Assembly (NCBI GenBank): GCA_029202385.1
Contig: CP119314.1
Location: 1,366,501-1,430,500 of the forward strand
DNA length: 64,000 nucleotides
Direction: 5' to 3'
DNA from: Candidatus Sphingomonas phytovorans
GTDB lineage: Bacteria; Pseudomonadota; Alphaproteobacteria; Sphingomonadales; Sphingomonadaceae
Under the pieces are notes generated by a model that was not told the origin of the DNA, ran no database searches, and saw only the letters and a list, made by a program, of their open reading frames with translations. Shown piece by piece: positions 13,579 to 26,259 of the stretch. A program made the translations under genes and the position numbers. Each line of letters starts with the position of its first letter. Positions within the stretch are counted from its first letter, which is position 1.

Positions 13579-13619
13579 GGAGAGGTGGCCGAGTGGTTTA
13601 AGGCAGCGGTCTTGAAAAC
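13579..13619 (+). pseudogene. 5' half of host tRNA-Ser(UGA), split by island
   Basis: Acceptor strand GGAGAGG, D-arm GCCGAGTGGTTTAAGGC and the 5' anticodon stem GCGGT with loop CTTGAAA are normal for tRNA-Ser. After CTTGAAAAC the sequence changes to TAACGG, so the 3' anticodon stem, variable arm, T arm and acceptor complement are missing. Those pieces are found at 26202-26259. Joining the two at the shared CTTGAAAAC restores a full tRNA-Ser with a 7-bp acceptor stem and a matching anticodon stem (GCGGT / ACCGC). Confidence 0.92.
13611..13619 (+). repeat. attL core CTTGAAAAC
   Basis: Nine bases identical to the core at 26202-26210. It covers the anticodon loop of the target tRNA-Ser, a known crossover location for tyrosine integrases. 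A third copy lies at 13795-13803, inside the island's own tRNA-Ser. Confidence 0.82.
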
Positions 13620-13762: not shown

Positions 13763-13852
13763 GGAAGAGTGTCCGAGTGGTTTAAGGAACTGGTCTTGAA
13801 AACCAGCGACGGGGCAACCCGTCCGTGGGTTCGAATCCCACCTCTTCCGCCA
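13763..13852 (+). tRNA. tRNA-Ser(UGA), complete, island-borne
   Basis: Acceptor stem GGAAGAG / CTCTTCC, D arm, anticodon stem-loop CTGGT-CTTGAAA-ACCAG with anticodon TGA, a long class II variable arm (GACGGG / CCCGTC), T arm GTGGGTTCGAATCCCAC, discriminator G and an encoded CCA (13850-13852). It decodes UCA and, by wobble, other UCN codons. It differs at many positions from the split host tRNA, so it is not a simple duplication. Its position inside the left end suggests it stands in for the tRNA broken by the integration. The 110 bp before it (13620-13727) shows no coding signal. Confidence 0.96.
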
Positions 13853-13893: not shown

Positions 13894-14649
13894 TCAGAAC
13901 GGCACATCGTCATCGAGGTCGCTGTCAAACGGGGAGGCCAACGACGAAGCCAGCTTCCTCGGAGCGCTAAGAGCCTTAGCCGGGGCCACCGCCGGAAGCT
14001 GCTTGGTTTCGTCTTCGGCAGCCTTCGCTTCTGCGACCGTCTGCATAATACTAGTAGTCAGCTTATGGGTGATGTCTGCCGACGCCCAGAGCGTGCCGGG
14101 AACGCTTAGGATCAAATAAGCCAAACGTGCGACGGCCAACATATTAAGCCGACGCTTCTCCAGTTCAGCTTCAAAGGCATCGAGTTTCTTTAATAGACCC
14201 TCACGCTTAGCGGCGCTCATATTGCCATTCTCAATGCATTGCTTGAGCCCGCTAAGATACGTTCTTAGTTGATCTTTTGTCTTGGGTAGAACCTCAACAG
14301 AATCACGTTTCGCGCGAAGGCTATTATCCAATATCAATTGCGTGACATAGTGATCTAAATCAGATTTGAATTGACGATGATCTGTGTCTCGAAAATTGGA
14401 ATATTGAGGCACCTCCATCGAATAAAATGGCTCAATCTCGAAACGTTTCGCAGCCGCGACAACCACGTTCATAAAACTGTAGCGAAGCTCTTCGATCTTC
14501 TGCCACTCATACTGATTTTCCGGATCAAGCGCACCAATTTTGGTGGAAAGGCTCCGTTGAGTTGCGTTGACGAGCTGCATAAACGCCATGCGCGGATCTT
14601 CGTCGAGATCGTCAAGTTCGTCCTGATTAACAAATTCCAGAATGCTCAT
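13894..14649 (-). CDS. unknown protein with SSB-like C-terminal tail
   Basis: 251 residues from the ATG beginning MSILEFVNQDELDDLDEDP (longer in-frame starts reach 14724). Mostly helical by composition, with a charged helix-rich middle (MSAAKREGLLKKLDAFEAE), a hydrophobic patch LAYLILSVPGTLWASADI, then a disordered Ala/Pro/Ser-rich stretch that ends exactly in DSDLDDDVPF. That ending matches the acidic C-terminal tip of bacterial single-stranded DNA-binding protein (consensus DDDIPF), which docks SSB partners such as RecQ, PriA, exonuclease I or primase. There is no OB fold here, so it is not an SSB. It is transcribed divergently from the metallopeptidase-caspase operon. Codon use and lower G+C mark it as island DNA. 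Function unknown. Confidence 0.78.
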   Translation of the reverse strand: MSILEFVNQDELDDLDEDPRMAFMQLVNATQRSLSTKIGALDPENQYEWQKIEELRYSFMNVVVAAAKRFEIEPFYSMEVPQYSNFRDTDHRQFKSDLDHYVTQLILDNSLRAKRDSVEVLPKTKDQLRTYLSGLKQCIENGNMSAAKREGLLKKLDAFEAELEKRRLNMLAVARLAYLILSVPGTLWASADITHKLTTSIMQTVAEAKAAEDETKQLPAVAPAKALSAPRKLASSLASPFDSDLDDDVPF

Positions 14650-14884
14650 CGGCCACACGCCCCCACTGATGCCCTCTATTGCGATCGGTAGCATGAACAT
14701 CCGAAATTTCCCAGACGTTCTCACTTCGTTCTAGGGCGTCGTGCTGCGAACCAAAGCGTGTCATCCCATACGCCGCCGCTTTTCCATAGCAACCTGAAGT
14801 CCCGTTGATACAAATCGCCAGCAATACAGAGGATCGATACGACAGCAACTTGTCGATACCCATCGTGCACGTCATTAGTGTGGA

Positions 14885-15799
14885 ATGGAGAACGTGAAAA
14901 CAGACGGACCAACTGGCGGCCCCGATTTGACAGGCGAACAACTCGCGCGTGCCGTGGCGGCCGATTTTGAATCCTTCTTTCTACCATGGGGGCCGCTCGA
15001 AGTGAGGATTGCTGTGGAGGCAGCTCATAGCGCGTGTATCCGGCGCAGCGGTGACGAAACACGGATTGTCATTCCACCTGATATGGCACGCGAGGAGATC
15101 GACAGTCCTGATCGACTCTTCTTTCATCTGCTCATCCTAAGCCACGAGTTAGCCCATCTGGTGCACCGGCACCTTTATGCCGGGGTCCAAGAGGCAGCCG
15201 ATTATCGTGCCCTCGAATATTGGGCGGATTTTTATGGCGCGAAAGTGATGATGACGCTGGTGACCTTTGGGGAGCGCGTGAACAAAATTTTCCGCGTATT
15301 CTTTCCTGCCACGCACTTTTTCGAGGCGGCATTGGAGAGTGTCGGACGAGCAGTCGGACGACTCGTTGAAACCGTTTATACGGACGACGATCGTTATCCG
15401 CCTAAGCTGCTCAGGGTAGGCCTGACCTCCAATGGGGTGACCTCGTTCCTACGCCATGACATGATCAATCCCCCGCCCATTTGGTATTTCAGTGTATTCA
15501 AGCGCGTATTTGCCTCCCAGCCGGTTCGCGAGCTGATGCTTCTGTATCCCGAACAGATGGACCTTAACGTGGACCCGATTGAACGCGCCCGGAAGTGGCA
15601 CCGCGAAATGCAGGGCGATAAGATCGCGATCACGCCATGGTTTAAGCCAGAGGTCGTCATCTATCTCCACACCAGCTTCGATCAGACAGATGAGGAGAGG
15701 GCCGCCTCGGAGCGGATGCGCCTCGAAGAATTGCAGGCTGCCGGTTATCTGCTCAACGAGCCGAAACCCGGCGGAAGTGAAGCGGATGCACGGTTGTAA
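14885..15799 (+). CDS. HExxH metallopeptidase, island cargo
   Basis: 304 residues. SHELAHLVHRHL (His87, Glu88, His91) is a zincin HExxH motif, followed by ALEYWADFYGAK where Glu111 (ExxAD pattern) is a plausible third zinc ligand. The rest is not recognised; two segments (VMMTLVTFGERVNKIFRVFF and LESVGRAVGRLVETV) are amphipathic rather than clearly membrane spanning, and no signal peptide is seen, so it probably acts in the cytoplasm. The start may instead be the GTG at 14894, which has GGAG just upstream. It is the first of three co-directional genes leading to the caspase-like protease. Related HExxH proteins occur in toxin-antitoxin regulators and defence modules, but the role here is inferred from context only. 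Confidence 0.82.
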   Translation: MENVKTDGPTGGPDLTGEQLARAVAADFESFFLPWGPLEVRIAVEAAHSACIRRSGDETRIVIPPDMAREEIDSPDRLFFHLLILSHELAHLVHRHLYAGVQEAADYRALEYWADFYGAKVMMTLVTFGERVNKIFRVFFPATHFFEAALESVGRAVGRLVETVYTDDDRYPPKLLRVGLTSNGVTSFLRHDMINPPPIWYFSVFKRVFASQPVRELMLLYPEQMDLNVDPIERARKWHREMQGDKIAITPWFKPEVVIYLHTSFDQTDEERAASERMRLEELQAAGYLLNEPKPGGSEADARL

Positions 15800-15851
15800 C
15801 CTTAGCGCAAGCGTTCTTGGAATGATCGCACCCCATCGATAGATTTTGGTT

Positions 15852-16517
15852 ATGGTAGAAAGCCTGATGCCCGAAAGAGTTGAACAAACGGAGACGCCTG
15901 ATCCACGCATTTTTTGCTTCGAGCGAGATGAAGATGATCGCGCATTCGAAACCTCTGTGACCGCCCTAATGGGAAGGATGCAGGAGCAGTCGCGCCAGAT
16001 GTTCATTAACGAGCACAATGTTCTTCGTATGAATCATGGCGCAAACTGGGTCCATTCGGCGCGCGACGCAGAGCCTGACACAACGATGCACAGCATTTCT
16101 GCGGAATGGACGATCCCATTCGCAGGGATCGCGGAGAACGATCTGAATCTGATTGCTCAGACCATTCTCCCCGTGAACGAGGAGATGGAGCGCCAGTTCG
16201 CCCAAAACATATATGGCGTGATGGGTGCGGCAGCGGAAAAGGTCGGCAACGTTGTCGATGCCAAGGAGGCCGGATCGTTCGCGCTTTCGATGCTGGAGAT
16301 GTTCCGAAAGATTGAGTTTGGTGTCGATCGTGACGGAAATGTCTCGATGCCTCAGATACATGTCGGGCCGGGTATGTATGAGCGCATTGTAAGCGAAATG
16401 CAGGACGTGCCGCCCGAACTTTCTGCGGAGATCGAACGGGTAAAAGCGGAGAAAATTCAGCTAGCTCTGGACCGAGAGGTCGAACGGAAGGCCAAGTTTA
16501 AGCGGGCGAGCGGATGA
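15852..16517 (+). CDS. unknown protein between metallopeptidase and caspase
   Basis: About 221 residues from the ATG at 15852 (TTG at 15846 and ATG at 15867 are alternatives, none with a strong ribosome site). Acidic N-terminus, a central segment SAEWTIPFAGIAENDLNLI, then GVMGAAAEKVGNVVDAKEAG and a highly charged C-terminal helix (AEIERVKAEKIQLALDREVE). No domain recognised; no signal peptide or membrane segment. The stop overlaps the caspase gene start by 4 bp (ATGA), which implies co-translation and a functional tie, for example as a substrate, inhibitor or sensor of the protease. It does not look like a bacterial gasdermin to me. Confidence 0.75.
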   Translation: MVESLMPERVEQTETPDPRIFCFERDEDDRAFETSVTALMGRMQEQSRQMFINEHNVLRMNHGANWVHSARDAEPDTTMHSISAEWTIPFAGIAENDLNLIAQTILPVNEEMERQFAQNIYGVMGAAAEKVGNVVDAKEAGSFALSMLEMFRKIEFGVDRDGNVSMPQIHVGPGMYERIVSEMQDVPPELSAEIERVKAEKIQLALDREVERKAKFKRASG

Positions 16518-18415
16518 GTGGGCGTGCGCTGATCGCCATTGGTTGTAACGGCTATGAACATCTGAACCCATTGACTGGCGCGGAAGCCGATGCCGCCGGA
16601 ATTTACGATGCGCTCATACAGCCCCAGATCGGTGACTATGATGTCTCGCGATCATACATCTTGCGCTCTCCCTCTCTCCAAGAAGTGCGCGACACCCTAA
16701 CTACGACCTTATTTTCCGGTGAGGCACTGGACACGCTGACCATCGCTTTCGCCGGTCACGGCGCCGTTAGCGGGGGCAGCTTCTACATGGCGCTGCGCGA
16801 TTCACGAGGGCAAGCCTTGTCCGCCACTGCGCTGTCGCTGGCGGACCTATTTCGGATGATCGCCGAGGCCGGCCCCAAGCAGACCTATCTCATTATCGAT
16901 GCTTGCCAATCCGGCGGGTTGATTGCGGACCTCAATGTGATCCTTAAATCGGAGGTTATGGGGGAGCTTGGGACACCCGGCGTCACCTTGCTAGCAACGG
17001 CTGCATCTAATGAATCTGCCGTGGAAATCGGCGGCCATGGAATAGGCACGGCGGCGCTACTCCAATGCATTCGGGGCGAGATCTTTCTTCAGGACAGCAA
17101 TCCCGCGCTCGACCTTGTCGAAATTGGGCGCGCGGTGTCGCAGCGCCTCAGCGCGGCGGGCGAGCAGACGCCGGTGGTCTGGGGCCTCAATCTTTATGGT
17201 CCGTCAAGCTTCAGCAAGAACCCGCATGTGGGTACCGGAAATGCGCCGCTCAGAAGCGTGCTGGCCGGATGGCCCGATGCCAAGAGCGCGGCGGCGATTC
17301 GATCAAACTTGCCGCGCCTCTGGGAGCCTTATGTCGCCCTGACTCGGCGATGGGACCCGAGGGGATTTGTCGACCGGCTTTCGCCACTGCTTGATCAATT
17401 ACAATACAATCCAATGGTGCTTCTGAACTTGAGTGAGCGCGTCTCGGAAGCTTGCGCAGCTCAGGCCCGGGAGGCGCGAGACCGGTTTCGTGAGATTGAG
17501 GTTCAGGCGGCCTGCATCGTCGCATTGCTCCCATATTCGTCGCAGCCCGCCGTGGCCGATCAACTTGTCCGGCAATGTGTCGAGCTTGGCGTACAGGTTG
17601 AAGTGGCCTTGCAGGAGGTGATCGCCGCCGCCGAAGCATATCAATATGCACTGGTAACCGGCGGTCTTGGCGATCTCTACTATCTACCTATCCGTATCTC
17701 AAAATTGCTCGGCTGGAGCGGTTTTGCGATCCATGTGAGACTGTTGACTGGCAACGATCCCGGACCGGCTAAAGCTGTGCTCTCGGGTCTCCTGGAAAAG
17801 GTATTTGAGACTTACTCGCTTTCGCTTGTGGCGATGAGCGACTGTCAGGCGTCATTTCTCATTGCAGCAATAACGGCTTGCTCTCGCGTCGGCCTCATCG
17901 ATGAAGCCGAGCGATTGCTGGGGCATTATTTCGCGTCCGTCGTGAGTTGCGGGGGTAAGATTGCGCGGACTGATCTCGATCCCTCTAGGGTCCTCTCCTA
18001 TTTGGTAGCGCGCAGCAGTCCGCCAATCGGGCTCGGCCTCGACGTGATCGCGCAGCCCACCGAACTCGTGCTTGCGCTTCTGCGCTTGTCACGGCTAGCC
18101 GACCTTACTGACGAGTTCGACCTCGCTCTTTCCGAACTCGATCACCTAGCACTTAACGCTTATCTGCCTGATGACTATCGGCAGTTCGGCGACGAGCATA
18201 TCGCCAATGGTGTGAATGCTGTATTCCACATCGGGCATGATTTCTGGCGCGTGACTGACCTCGAATCTGCTTGGCCAGCATTTCCCAGTCCCGCGGATGC
18301 GGGCACATCCATGGCGTCCCTGTTGGCGTCCCTCATTTTCCCGGACCGATGCCCTTGGTTTCTCTTACCTGTCCCCTCGCTCGTCGAAGGCAACCCGCTA
18401 ACGGGTATTGATTAG
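16514..18415 (+). CDS. caspase-like (C14) protease with helical C-terminal region
   Basis: 633 residues. The N-terminal about 230 residues are a caspase/metacaspase-type domain: ALIAIGCNGYEHLNPLTGAEADA, catalytic histidine in TIAFAGHGAVSGG (His82) and catalytic cysteine in YLIIDACQSGGL (Cys131). The remaining about 400 residues are predicted alpha-helical with repeat-like leucine/alanine spacing (VADQLVRQCVELGVQVEVAL, AVLSGLLEKVFETYSLSL), fitting a TPR-like or armadillo-like sensor scaffold, though no repeat consensus is clear. Prokaryotic caspase homologues often act as effectors in antiphage and abortive-infection systems. Last gene of the three-gene unit; overlaps the preceding gene by 4 bp. 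Confidence 0.88.
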   Translation: MSGRALIAIGCNGYEHLNPLTGAEADAAGIYDALIQPQIGDYDVSRSYILRSPSLQEVRDTLTTTLFSGEALDTLTIAFAGHGAVSGGSFYMALRDSRGQALSATALSLADLFRMIAEAGPKQTYLIIDACQSGGLIADLNVILKSEVMGELGTPGVTLLATAASNESAVEIGGHGIGTAALLQCIRGEIFLQDSNPALDLVEIGRAVSQRLSAAGEQTPVVWGLNLYGPSSFSKNPHVGTGNAPLRSVLAGWPDAKSAAAIRSNLPRLWEPYVALTRRWDPRGFVDRLSPLLDQLQYNPMVLLNLSERVSEACAAQAREARDRFREIEVQAACIVALLPYSSQPAVADQLVRQCVELGVQVEVALQEVIAAAEAYQYALVTGGLGDLYYLPIRISKLLGWSGFAIHVRLLTGNDPGPAKAVLSGLLEKVFETYSLSLVAMSDCQASFLIAAITACSRVGLIDEAERLLGHYFASVVSCGGKIARTDLDPSRVLSYLVARSSPPIGLGLDVIAQPTELVLALLRLSRLADLTDEFDLALSELDHLALNAYLPDDYRQFGDEHIANGVNAVFHIGHDFWRVTDLESAWPAFPSPADAGTSMASLLASLIFPDRCPWFLLPVPSLVEGNPLTGID

Positions 18416-18426
18416 CCCCACGGAAA

Positions 18427-19095
18427 TCATCCGACCTTTTCGGCATAAAACGTCAAGAGGTTTTCAAGGAACGTTTTGGCAATATCCTTCTCGTCAAAGG
18501 TCGCCGCGCGCCTGCTGCCTTCGACCTTGATCGCGATGGATCTGGCGTGAGCGATAGCCTCCATATCCTCGACGGACACATAGGCGAGGCCGGTTTCGCG
18601 GAGGCCGGATGATGCCGACCGACTCATGGAATTATATTGGATGCGGTCACCAAATGCGGCCCCTGCCTGCAAGAACGAGGCGGAAACGCGTTTCGAGCCA
18701 TCGATTATGAATATGATACTCTGCGGTGTGCCGATGCTGTTGGGCGATCCGTAGGTGGTGTCGATTTCCGTCTCATTGTGGAAGAAGAAGCCGACCCTTG
18801 CGATCTTTCCGTCCGCTCGATTCCGCATCACCAACGGCTCAAGGTAGAGCCCCTGCCCGTTGATGTAGATTCCCCCGGCTGGAGATTTCTTGGAGATACG
18901 ATTGTTCAGCCCCATAAACGTGATCGTCGGGGCATCGGAGAATCGGTCGTCTGTTTGCTCGATCTTGAATTTGCCAGGACCGAAAAGACCTTGCGCGGAT
19001 GCCGGAGCGGTCAACGCCATACTCCCGGCAAACATAATCCCGACGCTGACCAGCTTTCCAAGCGTTCGCATATGGCGGTGGTTACGCAACGTCAT
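18427..19095 (-). CDS. unknown exported protein
   Basis: 222 residues from the ATG at 19095, which has GGAG nine bases upstream; an ATG at 19071 is possible. Signal peptide LGKLVSVGIMFAGSMALTAPASAQG with an AxA-type cleavage site. The mature part has a beta-rich look (PTITFMGLNNRISKKS, GFFFHNETEID, SIIFIIDGSKRVSASF) and no recognised domain. It overlaps the end of the PH-domain gene by 14 bp and is probably co-transcribed with it from the palindrome-controlled promoter. It converges on the caspase gene with 11 bp between stops. Confidence 0.72.
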   Translation of the reverse strand: MTLRNHRHMRTLGKLVSVGIMFAGSMALTAPASAQGLFGPGKFKIEQTDDRFSDAPTITFMGLNNRISKKSPAGGIYINGQGLYLEPLVMRNRADGKIARVGFFFHNETEIDTTYGSPNSIGTPQSIIFIIDGSKRVSASFLQAGAAFGDRIQYNSMSRSASSGLRETGLAYVSVEDMEAIAHARSIAIKVEGSRRAATFDEKDIAKTFLENLLTFYAEKVG

Positions 19096-19579
19096 ATTCA
19101 CGCACTCCCACGCGCCTGCGAGCAGCTTCCACACGGGAACGCAGTTCCTCCCGCAGCGAGCGGGCATCTTCGACATTATTGATCTGAAAGGTCGTTCTCC
19201 GCCCCTCGCCTACGCCCGTCGCATCGGACGAGATAACCGAAAGATCGCCGTTACCGAAGAACTGCTGCACCAGCGAGAAATGGACCTTGATGTCCTTGAT
19301 CCGGTAGAGTTCGATTTCCTCCTCGCTGCGCATGAGAATACCGCGCCGCATGAAAAGGCGGTCACCCTCCAGCCAATAAAGGCTGGTGCGGTTAATCAAC
19401 GTCTTCAAGGCGAGAATCGGAAGCGTCACAACCCCCGCCCCGCCCATAGTGAGCAGCGTTATCGCGATCATAAACCAGCCAGTTGCCGACTTGAGCAAAA
19501 AGGCTTTTGTCGAAGAACGAAACTCGATTGTGCTGGATGATATGTTGGCTCTTATGTCCCTGAACGCGGCGGTCGCCAT
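19082..19579 (-). CDS. bacterial PH-domain membrane protein
   Basis: 165 residues from the ATG at 19579, which has AAGGAG seven bases upstream (longer reading to 19609 is unlikely). Two transmembrane segments at about residues 30-60 (GWFMIAITLLTMGGAGVVTLPILAL) precede a bacterial PH-like (bPH_2, YdbS-type) domain: LYWLEGDRLFMRRGILMRSEEEIELYRIKDIKV, followed by a beta strand and GRRTTFQINNVEDARSL, the classic end of this fold. Role unknown; such proteins sit at the inner membrane. Divergent from the XRE regulator gene. Confidence 0.85.
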   Translation of the reverse strand: MATAAFRDIRANISSSTIEFRSSTKAFLLKSATGWFMIAITLLTMGGAGVVTLPILALKTLINRTSLYWLEGDRLFMRRGILMRSEEEIELYRIKDIKVHFSLVQQFFGNGDLSVISSDATGVGEGRRTTFQINNVEDARSLREELRSRVEAARRRVGVREYDVA

Positions 19580-20363: not shown

Positions 20364-22301
20364 TCACTGCGTCACCATATAGACGTTGCCCGAAGGAGCC
20401 TTTTCGTCGGCATCTACCAGGCGGCTTGCCGCCCGCAGCCTGTGGATCGCGTCGCGAAGCCTGACCTGCGTGAGCTTGCGCTCTTGGTTCATCTGGTTGG
20501 CGCGCTGCCCTTCCAGCGACCTGCCGCTGGGATATTCGCCATTCTCGACCGCACGCTTCACCCATTCCCAAACGAACTGTTCGTCTTCCGCGTCCTCGGC
20601 ACTCCTGTCCTGTTTGAACGGATGGTCAGCGCCAGGCGCTTCTTCCGCTGGCATGGGTGCGACAACGAGTGACGACATATAGTCGCCGTCCTCGTCCATT
20701 CCGATCTGGACCACTTCCAGCCGGAACCGCGTTCGAGCGCCGGTGCTGCCGTCCTTCACCTTCGCGAGGACAAATTCAGCCGCGAGCGCTGGGTCGTCCT
20801 TGTCGCGCTGGCACTCAATCACAAAATCCATCGCCGCATGGAGGCCGGACCAGCCGCGCATCCCGCGCGAACTGTCTTTGCCACTGTGATGGATCAGCAA
20901 GACAACGCCGCCAAGCCGCAATTGCAGGTCGCGGAAAATGCTGATCATCTCCGCCATCGCGCTGCTATTCTCGTCAATGCCTGCCGAAGCGTGCGCGAGC
21001 GTGTCAATGCACAACACCCCACCAGCCCAGCCCTGCTCCGTCAGCGTCGCGACCAAGGTGTCCCGGTCCGCCTGCTCGCGCAGATTGATCGGTTCCATGA
21101 TGACCGAAATGTTGGTTCGCACATCATCGGGCGGGATGACCGAAAACAACATTTCCGGGTTCTGCCGTGCCGCCTGCGCCAGCCGCCATGCTTTCACGCG
21201 ATTGGGGATGCCACCTTGCCCTTCGAATGGGACATAGACGGCGGGAGCAGCCCGCACCCGATTGCCGAACCACTCGTTTCCGTTCGAGATGTGGGCCATC
21301 AAGTCGAGAGTGAGGAAAGATTTGAAGGTGCCAGAGTCACCATAAATCGCACCGATACCGGCATCGGGAATAATTCGCTTCACCAGCCACCGCAACGCAG
21401 GGAGCCGGTCCAAGTCGCCATCACTGAGCAGGCGGAAATGGCGCTGACTGTGTGGTGGCGGCCCCTGCCACAACAGTCCCGCCGCCATCGTCTGTCCGTG
21501 CTGAACGCTCGCGGCGTCGTTGGCGAGGTGCTGCATGGCTAGAGCCATGGTAGATTGTGCGTAGTCGATTCGCTTTGCCTTCTTCCGCTCACCGAGCTTC
21601 GACATACGGAACGTGCCCCAGCATTCACCGGGGGATTCGGTGAGCGGCCGGAGCAGCTTGACAAGGGCCAAGTCTGCCTCCGATTGCGAAGGGTAACGTC
21701 CTTCCCAGTCCCCACCGAACAAGCGCCCCAGCTCCCCATCGTCCTCTGCCGCGCGTGTCGCCGCGCTCCAATCCACGTGATCTTCGCCCCAAAGCTCAAT
21801 CTTAGCGGGCGGCTCTGGCACCATCAGCGATACCATGTTGGTGAGCAGCGCCTGCCGTTCTGCGATAGGATGGTCCCTCACGACATTGCCGGTACAGATC
21901 ATGAAGCGCGCCTGCGAATACACTTCCACGCCATCACGGCGCTTGCCCTCGCCGATCTTGCCCCTCACCCAAACATGAAAGCCGCGCCCGGACTGGGAAT
22001 GCTCGGTGTAGCTGTCGAACTGATCGATGATGGACTGATAGCGATCAAGGGCTTCGCGCGATGTGCCATCCTTCACATCCATATCGATGCACGAATATGG
22101 ATCGTCCGCCGTCTGCACATATCCGATGCCGCAACCTCGCGCGGCTGCACTGCGGCTGGCGGTGACGAAATCCGTCCACGTGGCGGGATCGGTAACGCTG
22201 GCGGGGCGACCATCCGCCGTCAGGGGACGCTTGTTCTGCTCTGCCAGACACCATTGCGGGCGTTCACGAAGCTCTGCGGGAATACGAGACCAATCAGTCA
22301 T
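20364..22301 (-). CDS. primase-polymerase / RepA-like helicase fusion
   Basis: 645 residues from the ATG at 22301, which has GGGAGG seven bases upstream. The N-terminal about 160 residues look like an archaeo-eukaryotic primase/NrS-1-type polymerase domain: CIDMDVKDG (Asp73, Asp75 as metal ligands), SGRGFHVWVRG and ARFMICTGN. The central part is a RecA-fold ATPase of the RepA/AAA_25 type: Walker A GDSGTFKS at 321-328, Walker B GGVLCIDT at about 427-434, then VVLLIHHSGKDSSRGMRGWSG. A short winged-helix-like tail follows. Such proteins start replication of satellites, plasmids and integrative elements. It sits beside the AlpA-like gene and a hairpin-rich region. Confidence 0.87.
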   Translation of the reverse strand: MTDWSRIPAELRERPQWCLAEQNKRPLTADGRPASVTDPATWTDFVTASRSAAARGCGIGYVQTADDPYSCIDMDVKDGTSREALDRYQSIIDQFDSYTEHSQSGRGFHVWVRGKIGEGKRRDGVEVYSQARFMICTGNVVRDHPIAERQALLTNMVSLMVPEPPAKIELWGEDHVDWSAATRAAEDDGELGRLFGGDWEGRYPSQSEADLALVKLLRPLTESPGECWGTFRMSKLGERKKAKRIDYAQSTMALAMQHLANDAASVQHGQTMAAGLLWQGPPPHSQRHFRLLSDGDLDRLPALRWLVKRIIPDAGIGAIYGDSGTFKSFLTLDLMAHISNGNEWFGNRVRAAPAVYVPFEGQGGIPNRVKAWRLAQAARQNPEMLFSVIPPDDVRTNISVIMEPINLREQADRDTLVATLTEQGWAGGVLCIDTLAHASAGIDENSSAMAEMISIFRDLQLRLGGVVLLIHHSGKDSSRGMRGWSGLHAAMDFVIECQRDKDDPALAAEFVLAKVKDGSTGARTRFRLEVVQIGMDEDGDYMSSLVVAPMPAEEAPGADHPFKQDRSAEDAEDEQFVWEWVKRAVENGEYPSGRSLEGQRANQMNQERKLTQVRLRDAIHRLRAASRLVDADEKAPSGNVYMVTQ

Positions 22302-22464
22302 GACGGGCCTCCCTGCCGGTGGAGGTAGGATGGGATTTTCGCGCAACGCCGCCTGCATCCGGCAAATTTTTACGCGGCGCGAATTTCTCGAATAGTTCGA
22401 AACACGTTGATGTTTGCGACCTATCGCCGCTTTCTGTTACGCTGCTGTGCACGGTGATACTCCG

Positions 22465-23040: not shown

Positions 23041-23880
23041 TCAATGTCCTAGAATAGTTTCCATTCGACCTTGCAGAGCGTTCGCCAAGGCTGTTCGTCC
23101 CTCCGCGTTGTTCAAATATCGGATATATCGCAGGTGACGAAGATCGAACGGAATATCATGCTCGCTCTGCGTGATGAGGATGACCTCTCGCCCCAGCGTG
23201 TGAGCAATACCTGCCTCATAAAACACGTTCGGATTTCGGCCCGAGCAGTCGCAGATCACCACGCGAGAGCGGTCGATGAGCGATACCACGTCTTGGATAA
23301 TCGCCGGGTTTTCCCAAATGTCATCTGCTCGACGGCAGCGTAGGCCCGCATTGTCAGCGGCAAGCTGGATCGCCGCATAGACATCGTTAAATCCGGCATC
23401 AAAGGGCATCATTGCGGACGCAAGCGTCGGTTCAATATTCTCATGTTCGGCAATTTGAAACACCGTCGGGCGTTGGCGGCGCGGTCGGACATTGCGAAGA
23501 AGAAAACGGTAAAGGTCCACCTCCTTCACTGCCCAATGATTGCGCGAAAACTCAAAGTCGTGAGGCATATCCAGTGCGTTGCGGTTCGCCCAGATTAAAC
23601 TGTTCTGCAATGGCGGCACATCGGCATCTAGCGCATATTCAAAATGAATCTCGCGGTTGGCGATACGCGCCCGTGTGATTGAACCAACGTGACAGACCTG
23701 CTCTTCGTTACCTTCATTCATGAATAAGCATGGCAATCGGGTGAGTCGGTCGAGGGCAGGATTACCACCGTCACGGAACTGATCGGCAATACGCTCATCG
23801 GTATATTCAAACATCCGGCTCAAAGGGAGCGTCCCGGTATTATCGCCCCACTCAAACCAGCGCATAATCAGATTGAACAT
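23041..23880 (-). CDS. protein with C-terminal nucleoside deoxyribosyltransferase/TIR-like domain
   Basis: 279 residues. The N-terminal half (about 1-140) is unknown, with the pieces LPCLFMNEGNEEQVC and FEFSRNHWAVKEVDL. The C-terminal about 130 residues show the NDT/TIR-like Rossmann pattern: ASAMMPFDAGFNDVYAAI, CRRADDIWENPAIIQDV, SRVVICDCSGRNPNVFYEAG (with the candidate catalytic glutamate in YEAGIAH) and EVILITQSEHDIPFDLRHL. Relatives hydrolyse N-glycosidic bonds of nucleosides or NAD and several are effectors of antiphage systems. Island position supports that reading; activity is inferred. A 10-G tract sits in its ribosome-site position. Confidence 0.83.
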   Translation of the reverse strand: MFNLIMRWFEWGDNTGTLPLSRMFEYTDERIADQFRDGGNPALDRLTRLPCLFMNEGNEEQVCHVGSITRARIANREIHFEYALDADVPPLQNSLIWANRNALDMPHDFEFSRNHWAVKEVDLYRFLLRNVRPRRQRPTVFQIAEHENIEPTLASAMMPFDAGFNDVYAAIQLAADNAGLRCRRADDIWENPAIIQDVVSLIDRSRVVICDCSGRNPNVFYEAGIAHTLGREVILITQSEHDIPFDLRHLRYIRYLNNAEGRTALANALQGRMETILGH

Positions 23881-24784: not shown

Positions 24785-26053
24785 TCAGGCCCGCAGTGCT
24801 ACGACGTTCCCGCCGTTCGCCTTCTCCGCCTGCTCCTCGATCCAATCCGCAATGCGCTGGGCTTCGGGCTTGAGATATTGCAGGCGTGAGGTTTCAAGAT
24901 AGTGCTTGGCAGTGACGGAACTGTTCGGAATGTGGTTCGTCAGCAACTCAATCTTCGTGAAGTCCACGGCGCAGTTTGCAACGCCGATGGTGATGTAGGT
25001 GCGTCGTAGATCGTGGTTCGTGACTTTGGTCCCGGCGACCTCGCTGATCTTCCGGCGCGTGTCGCGCGGGTCGATGATGTGGCCCGATCGCGACCACGAG
25101 GCGAACACATGCGGATTGCCTTCTACCCTTGCCCGTGATTCCAGCAGCGAAACCGCTTGCGACGACAGCGGGAGCCACACCGGATTACGGTTCTTTGGGT
25201 CGGGCAGATGGAACCAACCTTCCTCCAGATTAACGCGATCCCATGTGAGCGAGGCGGCTTCCTTGAGGCGGCACCCGGTCAGCAGCAAGAACATCGACAG
25301 GTCGATGGCAGCGAGGGTCTCGCGGTTGTGGGTCTCGCCGCGCCACTGTTCCAGTGCGTTCCATACCGCGCCGACCTTGGAGTCGGGCACGCGACTGGTG
25401 CGCGGCTTCAACTGAATCCAATCGTCCTTGAGCGCCCCGACAGGGTTGTGCGTGATGACGGGCGAGCCATCCGAACGCCGATAGCGACGGCTGGCGAAGT
25501 TAATCAGAGCGCGAAGCACTGCAAATCCTTGATTCGCTTGGCCCGGTGCCCCTGCCTTCCCGCGCAAGCCCTTCGTCAGCATGTCGCGATAGCGCTTCCG
25601 CACATCGTCCTCGCTGATGGACGCGATGGGCTTGGACAGCCACGCCTCAAACGTGGTCGTCACATGGCGCTCGATCACGTCTGCGCTCGAACCCTTCAAC
25701 TTGCCCGGTCGGTCCTTGTAGGCGTCAGCCACATCGCGGAGTGTCACCGCCACGGCGGCGTCGTGCTTCTTGGCATCGCGCGGGTCGATTCCCTCTCGCA
25801 TGTCCTGCAACAGCTTCTGCGCCCGCTTGCGCGCAGCGTCCTCGGTGTAGGTGCCGTATGCGCCAATAGTGAATTGGATCGACTTACCGGCAACCCTTCC
25901 CATGACGATGAACACCCGGCGCGGCGGCTTCCCCGGTGCTGGGGGTGGAGCCACCCGCAACCCATAGCCCTTCACCGCCTCGTCCCAATGGACCTGATAA
26001 CCCTTCTCCGGGGCTTGAACCTTGTCGATAAACGCCTTGGTGAGCTTCACCAT
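24785..26053 (-). CDS. int: tyrosine-type site-specific integrase
   Basis: 422 residues from the ATG at 26053, preceded by AAGGAGG. An N-terminal DUF4102-like arm-binding domain (about 1-95: VHWDEAVKGYGLRV ... QFTIGAYGTYTEDAARKRA), a core-binding SAM-like domain (about 105-190) and a catalytic domain with Arg262 (TGCRLKEAA), His347/Arg350 (NHDLRRTY), His374 and nucleophile Tyr385 (AKHYLET). This is the P4-type integrase layout of islands that insert in tRNA genes. It lies about 150 bp from the right att core, as expected. Confidence 0.96.
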   Translation of the reverse strand: MVKLTKAFIDKVQAPEKGYQVHWDEAVKGYGLRVAPPPAPGKPPRRVFIVMGRVAGKSIQFTIGAYGTYTEDAARKRAQKLLQDMREGIDPRDAKKHDAAVAVTLRDVADAYKDRPGKLKGSSADVIERHVTTTFEAWLSKPIASISEDDVRKRYRDMLTKGLRGKAGAPGQANQGFAVLRALINFASRRYRRSDGSPVITHNPVGALKDDWIQLKPRTSRVPDSKVGAVWNALEQWRGETHNRETLAAIDLSMFLLLTGCRLKEAASLTWDRVNLEEGWFHLPDPKNRNPVWLPLSSQAVSLLESRARVEGNPHVFASWSRSGHIIDPRDTRRKISEVAGTKVTNHDLRRTYITIGVANCAVDFTKIELLTNHIPNSSVTAKHYLETSRLQYLKPEAQRIADWIEEQAEKANGGNVVALRA

Positions 26054-26064
26054 ATGACCTCCTT

Positions 26065-26080
26065 CTAGCGCATTTCTAGC
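26065..26080 (+). promoter_or_regulatory. putative integrase arm site, right
   Basis: CTAGCGCATTTCTAGC, matching the left-end site at 13728-13743 in 14 of 16 positions. It sits just upstream of the integrase ribosome site, so binding there could also repress the integrase gene. A 14-bp direct repeat CAGTGCTACGACGT occurs nearby at 26089-26102 and again at 24794-24807 at the other end of the integrase gene. Confidence 0.45.
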
Positions 26081-26201
26081 ACGCGGCACAGTGCTACGAC
26101 GTGCTGCCACGAGGCTGCAAGGAGGTTATATTATTGATTCATAAGGCGTTTTAAGGCATCTGCGTGCCACTACAGGTTACTGCCGGGTCGGGTGTCCCAA
26201 A

Positions 26202-26259
<58 letters not shown>

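Follow-up and report, generated by a model that had tools for sequence, protein, structure and literature searches.

Which genes belong together in a run of four on a mobile island of a Sphingomonas genome, and what do they do? The genes lie in a window of 64,000 nucleotides (the whole stretch of DNA analysed here; contig CP119314.1, positions 1,366,501 to 1,430,500) from the 5.45 Mb genome of Candidatus Sphingomonas phytovorans, and encode an SSB-tail protein (A), a zincin (B), a small protein (C) and a caspase-like protease (D). The original prediction regarded all four as a candidate antiphage gene set in which two proteases might act as a cascade. Our comparison of related loci indicates that C and D probably constitute an undescribed two-gene, translationally coupled antiphage module acting by abortive infection, and that A and B lie outside it. 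It also places C beside a second effector, a predicted nuclease that we call R, a partnering beyond what the window alone could reveal.

All four predicted open reading frames (ORFs) are present (Table 1), with the expected HExxH motif in the zincin and the proposed catalytic histidine and cysteine in the protease, and the ORFs of C and D overlap by four bases (ATGA), in keeping with the translational coupling suggested for the last two genes. In D, the codon for His82 is CAC at 16757-16759 and that for Cys131 is TGC at 16904-16906. An alignment of 23 D proteins shows both residues in all 23, and the D proteins of three further loci (L010, L022 and L023) have them as well. D matches the PADLOC caspase model (E 6.7e-8) and the NCBIfam family NF047832, 'caspase, EACC1-associated type' (E 2.5e-23), the latter with 82.7 bits and below its cut-off of 140; a D profile also aligns with the solved metacaspase-1 over residues 4-87 (E 4.5e-5). 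With its His/Cys pair in GHG and DAC motifs, D is predicted to be a clan CD peptidase of the caspase superfamily. The boundary between its caspase domain and its C-terminal domain (17203/17204) is our choice. C belongs to no family in Pfam, PADLOC or NCBIfam, and a search of solved structures with C profiles returned no convincing relative.

The pairing of C with D is the most consistent feature of these loci. When four D proteins were used to scan 84,980 species genomes, 25 loci were recovered, 22 with a near-complete D and 3 with fragments, and C lies directly upstream in 22/22 of the former, so that the genome-neighbourhood check proposed with the original prediction came out in favour of the C-D part. 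The hosts are Sphingomonas, Sphingobium, Mesorhizobium, 'Aliirhizobium', a Caulobacteraceae metagenome-assembled genome, Ideonella, Rugamonas, Trinickia, Lysobacter, Stenotrophomonas and Pseudomonas; at one of the 22 loci (L049) D is split into three ORFs. The same arrangement occurs in L010, in L022 on a Sulfitobacter plasmid, in L023 on a metagenomic scaffold filed as phage, and in the IMG/VR contig L029. A second such contig, L030, ends inside D and has a C that scores like that of L029. Because their C proteins score exactly equal, L023 and the Pseudomonas locus L044 are probably of the same lineage. In 25 of 27 loci the reading frames of C and D share one base or more, and in 17 the overlap is exactly four bases.

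Purifying selection acts on both genes. A comparison of the window with Sphingobium scionense gives nonsynonymous (dN) and synonymous (dS) divergences of 0.043 and 0.522 for C and 0.048 and 0.575 for D, a dN/dS of about 0.08 each; within D, the caspase part has a dN of 0.017 and the remainder one of 0.066. Across 23 loci the distance matrices of C and D correlate with r 0.94, a value reached by none of 2000 permutations and one that still includes the shared ancestry of the hosts.

Two Sphingomonas-type loci, L010 and L032, look closely related because the same large gene follows D by 213 bases in both; this very large gene, encoding a nucleoside triphosphatase-like protein, occupies L010:12020-18838 and L032:10113-14180. 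In L010 it is followed by AAA and HNH-type genes, a run that by our reading resembles Septu.

Membership of B and A is another matter. The original prediction held that homologues never found together would refute the set, and for B this is what we found: B and A are absent from all 26 C-D loci and all 5 C-R loci, compared with flanks that extend 8 kb unless the contig ends sooner (the flanks of L029, L034 and L035 are short). Even the D of Sphingobium scionense (L033), which is 91% identical, has neither of them beside it. A search of the 22 genomes holding scan loci also returned no B, an empty result that by the search tool's own warning shows little alone; the same query does recover B in its own genome and in the genome G222. 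The homologues of B in G222 and on plasmids of Neorhizobium, Azotobacter and Acinetobacter lie in four loci without C or D. The reading in which B-C-D or A-B-C-D is one defence system, with a zincin-caspase cascade gated by C, can draw on the co-directional arrangement of B and C (gap about 50 bases) and on the conservation of HExxH and a downstream Glu (E..ADF motif) in 5 of 5 aligned B proteins, which suggests that B is probably an active peptidase. Against the recurrent absence of B from C-D loci and genomes, and of C and D from B loci, we find this reading hardly credible. The two-protease cascade therefore loses its support, as does the SSB-tail protein as a member: the C-D pair is conserved and the four-gene set is not. 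Given their absence from every C-D and C-R locus compared, we regard B and A as cargo that the element carries separately from the C-D module.

The two cargo genes have relatives of their own. B has only a weak M48-type match in Pfam (E 0.091), a further plasmid match in Acetobacter and no relatives in a scan of viral contigs; in several Proteobacteria, members of its family stand by themselves, on chromosomes as well as on plasmids. Homologues of A with 56-58% identity occur on three Methylobacterium/Methylorubrum plasmids, at one of which the gene lies beside a DNA methyltransferase gene, a phospholipase D-type gene and cas3, and its protein ends in DDDIPF. A, with its SSB-like DDDVPF tail, is possibly a protein that binds SSB partners.

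C is not confined to caspases. In five genomes (G054, G048, G436, G536 and G956) a C homologue overlaps the start of the gene for R, a protein of 542-550 residues in the four intact copies and frameshifted in G048. The caspase-type and nuclease-type C proteins are two subfamilies of one family (hhalign 99.3%, E 4.7e-20), and Gly63, Gly162, Glu209 and Arg212 are invariant across both (22 sequences). Glu209 and Arg212 fall in the basic C-terminal tail of C, which, because it is common to the C proteins of both protease and nuclease effectors, may be the part that docks the effector. R carries the pattern E..GKD...QxK, which we take to be that of PD-(D/E)XK nucleases, with Glu46, Asp50, Gln64 and Lys66 invariant in 4 of 4 intact copies; we accordingly describe it as a predicted nuclease of this type. 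Two R proteins scanned against Pfam and PADLOC matched no family in support of the assignment, and a search for R on plasmids found none. The best match of R among solved structures, calmodulin (E 0.0064), was taken as chance.

The C-terminal parts of D and R likely represent a shared domain, short of proof. Among 22 families built for comparison from fetched loci, the best foreign match of the D C-terminal part is R (23.8, next 18.3), and the best foreign match of the R C-terminal part is D (25.0, next 18.6). C looks like the constant partner of effectors that retain one domain and exchange the enzyme.

Bacterial caspases are known effectors, and the pairing suggests how one could be held in check. 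D would be a cysteine protease of the caspase family whose C-terminal domain is regulatory; C would bind that domain and keep the protease off, or present the infection signal to it. On infection the C-D complex would change, and D would cleave cell proteins and stop the cell before phage release. Elsewhere C would gate R, the predicted nuclease, apparently by way of this same domain, and for this reason C and that domain together may be the sensing part, with the N-terminal enzyme exchangeable. With one constant partner and two enzymes, the switch could be studied apart from the killing enzyme, and inspecting the genes downstream of C gives a rule for finding more effectors.

A toxin-antitoxin pair would look similar in several respects. 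C, the small upstream gene, would be the antitoxin and D, the downstream enzyme, a protease toxin; the genes overlap, their carriers are mobile (the window's element and the Sulfitobacter plasmid), and the pair would stabilise those elements, with antiphage action secondary or absent. The two readings overlap, but two C subfamilies serving two enzymes with a shared domain, together with the neighbours that match defence models, fit defence better, and we consider the toxin-antitoxin reading unlikely.

Those neighbours agree with the antiphage setting first proposed. At a threshold of E 1e-10, the two nearest ORFs of at least 150 residues on each side of 20 C-D loci, 80 in all, match 140 PADLOC families, compared with 7 for 69 ORFs drawn from 14 stretches elsewhere in those genomes. 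The figure of 140 counts families, not ORFs, and runs high because many of the models are redundant and describe a single protein type. The 25 families listed include GajA, matched by 2 ORFs with a best E of 3.6e-239, and GajB helicase models, any one of which is matched by at most 6 ORFs; a UvrD-type helicase need not be a defence gene. In Rugamonas (L036:5138-11122), two TIR-type genes and a small second caspase (D-profile match 5e-15) precede C-D, and a further caspase-like gene follows it, the TIR and caspase-like names being our reading; this run is a possible layered caspase system.

Several observations weigh against a C-D defence module built on an exchangeable effector. The defence-type neighbours amount to an association and no more. 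At L052, L054 and L055, three of the 25 scan loci, D is present only as a fragment, without C; in Pseudomonas (L054:7746-8474) and Sphingobium (L052:7941-8771) the remnant is the C-terminal part of D alone, which suggests loss or decay of the module. The pair is also rare. In a search of 346 genomes of the order at E 1e-20, D turned up only in the window and in G008. A C search in 100 genomes, the window's own included, found C beside D in G008 and distant C proteins beside another gene in G054 and G048; besides the window, C thus occurs in 3 of 99 relatives. It occurs in 2 of 336 genomes of the class (2 chance matches removed), in 1 of 397 of the phylum (1 chance match removed) and, beyond the seed, in 0 of 118 in the family of one Pseudomonas locus. 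No relatives came up when viral contigs were scanned with C or with nuclease-type C. Three weak C-profile matches (G514, G010 and G810; E 4.7e-4 to 8.8e-4) were inspected and taken as chance matches to unrelated proteins, and C matches near 1e-3 were for that reason left uncounted; G048 (E 9.5e-5) and G054 (E 5e-6) were retained because other C proteins match both strongly. Finally, the link between D and R is weak when taken alone: with 23 D proteins, the C-terminal match scores 25.3 (P 0.023, probability 2.1%), the highest of 100 column shuffles reaches 23.3 and the reversed control 15.2, and a comparison of the C-terminal parts with four proteins each gave no match.

What C might sense is suggested by a faint resemblance to phage capsid proteins. 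The Pfam family Phage_capsid_4 (PF25209) matches 4 of 24 C proteins, all below the cut-off (best E 0.0061, 17.3 bits against 27), and by our count the match registers agree within about 2 positions in the C proteins of Ideonella (L034), Lysobacter (L041) and Trinickia (L038). We assembled a capsid set from PF25209 members and 80 IMG/VR relatives; the set is akin to the capsid proteins of Mu GpT type (PDB 8rkc, E 1.3e-10). When its profile was run over 769 ORFs and their reversed copies, C ranked first after the true capsids (best E 0.0031) and filled eight consecutive rows with seven distinct genes; with a deeper capsid profile the first three rows were C (best E 0.011) and the ranking was mixed thereafter, so that C led less clearly. 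Alignments of C with the capsids by hhalign scored 25.7-28.8 (P 0.0025-0.0078), compared with at most 17.4 in 200 column shuffles and 12.6 for the reversed control. In a comparison with 22 families, the two C subfamilies came next after the capsid families (25.7 and 22.7), with D third (20.3). Nuclease-type C alone was collinear with the capsids over 97 columns (21.0, P 0.043).

Other results speak against a capsid origin. The similarity of C to capsid families stays below the family cut-off; the reverse search, with a C profile over the same ORFs, brought up no capsids, and C profiles matched no capsid among the solved structures in the PDB. Taken alone, caspase-type C gave P 0.027, and for nuclease-type C 2 of 200 shuffles scored as high. 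SU10_MCP, another capsid family, touches one of five nuclease-type C proteins (E 0.068), and against PHROGs 22 C proteins gave weak single-member matches only, one of them a 'major head protein' at 0.09. The likeness to Mu GpT-type and Phage_capsid_4 major capsid proteins is a weak, mostly register-consistent similarity; C is also shorter (about 205-220 residues, compared with about 290-315) and pairs with effectors, unlike Mu GpT-type capsids, and at the loci inspected no head genes were noticed next to it. From these profile comparisons we put distant homology of C to capsids at about an even chance. Bolder, and to us possible but rather doubtful, is the proposal that C is a domesticated, shortened capsid protein that serves as a sensor: when a phage infects, C would assemble together with its capsid protein or procapsid, or be pushed aside by it, and so switch on whichever enzyme, D or R, is docked on C by way of the shared C-terminal domain. 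If true, this would make C a bait derived from a capsid, with plug-in killers, and thereby a new type of antiphage sensor: bacteria would have turned a phage building block into a detector of phage assembly.

The mobile island suspected in the original prediction is an integrative element of about 12.6 kb that splits a host tRNA-Ser(TGA) gene in its anticodon region and carries a tyrosine-recombinase-type gene at its right end (Table 1). Joining the flanks restores a 90-nt tRNA-Ser(TGA) (ARAGORN); a search of 61 genomes, among them the window's own, recovered an intact gene of the joined pattern in 12 but not in the window's genome. Besides the genes in the table the element holds a helix-turn-helix (HTH) gene, and D is followed on the opposite strand by a gene (18427-19176) without a Pfam match. 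The AAA_25 protein, with its weak Prim-Pol similarity, suggests that the element may replicate itself, as satellites do. C-D might serve the element or a phage satellite, excluding or arresting competitors or tampering with helper-phage heads, and not protect the host as such. The integrase-, HTH- and AAA_25/weak Prim-Pol-type genes and the weak capsid similarity of C would suit such a role; elsewhere C-D occurs in many contexts, several of them without a nearby integrase by our (uncounted) reading, and we judge the satellite role quite improbable.

Table 1. Genes, domains and element boundaries in the window (coordinates in window positions)
Feature	Coordinates	Strand	Remarks
5' half of host tRNA-Ser(TGA) split by the element	13579-13619	plus	ends in shared CTTGAAAAC
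Intact tRNA-Ser(TGA) inside the element	13763-13852	plus	presumably replacement copy
Gene A, SSB-tail protein	13894-14724	minus	likely start 14649; C-terminal end LDDDVPF
Gene B, zincin	14885-15799	plus	HELAH, with H87/E88
Gene C, small partner protein	15852-16517 (start about 15846/15852)	plus	about 221 residues; homologue directly upstream of D in 22/22 loci
Gene D, caspase-like protease	16514-18415	plus	633 residues; PADLOC caspase and NCBIfam NF047832 matches
Caspase domain of D (about residues 1-230)	16514-17203	plus	NF047832 match over residues 7-214; His82/Cys131
C-terminal domain of D, probably common to nuclease effector R elsewhere	17204-18415	plus	D-R comparison, suggestive
AAA_25 protein, weak Prim-Pol similarity	20364-22358	minus	Pfam
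TIR-like gene, second possible defence gene of the element	23041-23880	minus	PADLOC TIR effector model, E 4e-8
Tyrosine recombinase/integrase-type gene, right end of the element	24785-26110	minus	weak NCBIfam XerA-type and integrase matches, below cut-off
3' half of split host tRNA-Ser	26202-26259	plus	shares CTTGAAAAC with the 5' half

The original prediction did not recognise the gene set as a named defence system, and for C-D this stands in the family libraries and the literature covered: in a search of mostly open-licence literature with few subscription papers, none of the matches listed describes the pair by title or the start of its abstract. Type IV Thoeris, a TIR-caspase system, reportedly uses a caspase-like effector in antiphage immunity. 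C-D shares that kind of effector, and by our reading TIR-type genes precede C-D in Rugamonas; the TIR-like gene of the window differs in lying 4.6 kb from C-D on the other strand.

A closer candidate is EACC1-caspase, of which C-D might be a proteobacterial variant. All 23 D proteins compared with NF047832 match it with an E of at most 0.01; the window D stays below its cut-off, and the window C has no NCBIfam match. The 19-residue hydropathy maximum in 26 C proteins is 0.98, and the usual threshold for a membrane helix is 1.6. The EACC1 system consists of two genes: the 5' gene encodes a small constant component, and the product of the 3' gene carries a caspase domain at its N terminus (Kaur et al. 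2020, PMC7159879). C-D has the same order, small partner first, and likewise combines one constant partner with varied effector parts. EACC1 itself is a protein with a single membrane helix, and the variable part of its system is mostly C-terminal (PMC7159879); C shows no such helix, and in C-D and C-R it is the N-terminal enzyme that varies. Because the partner has no membrane helix and the caspase falls below the cut-off, we do not file C-D under EACC1-caspase, and think it very unlikely to be a variant of that system.

Two further systems offer models of how C-D might work. In Canu, the antiphage caspase CanA is soluble only together with its partner CanB (PMC12799240), a caspase associated with a partner protein as D would be with C. 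There, CanA has an Ig-like fold and a metallo-beta-lactamase (MBL)-type nuclease, CanC, is encoded downstream (PMC12799240); in the window no MBL-type nuclease gene follows D, and C is a different constant partner. In CapRel SJ46, an autoinhibited effector is opened by a phage capsid protein (PMC9712102); it is one fused protein with a RelA-type toxin domain and no capsid-like partner. CapRel and Canu serve as analogies for C-D and do not imply membership, the one as a model of an effector opened by a capsid protein, the other of a caspase that depends on its partner.

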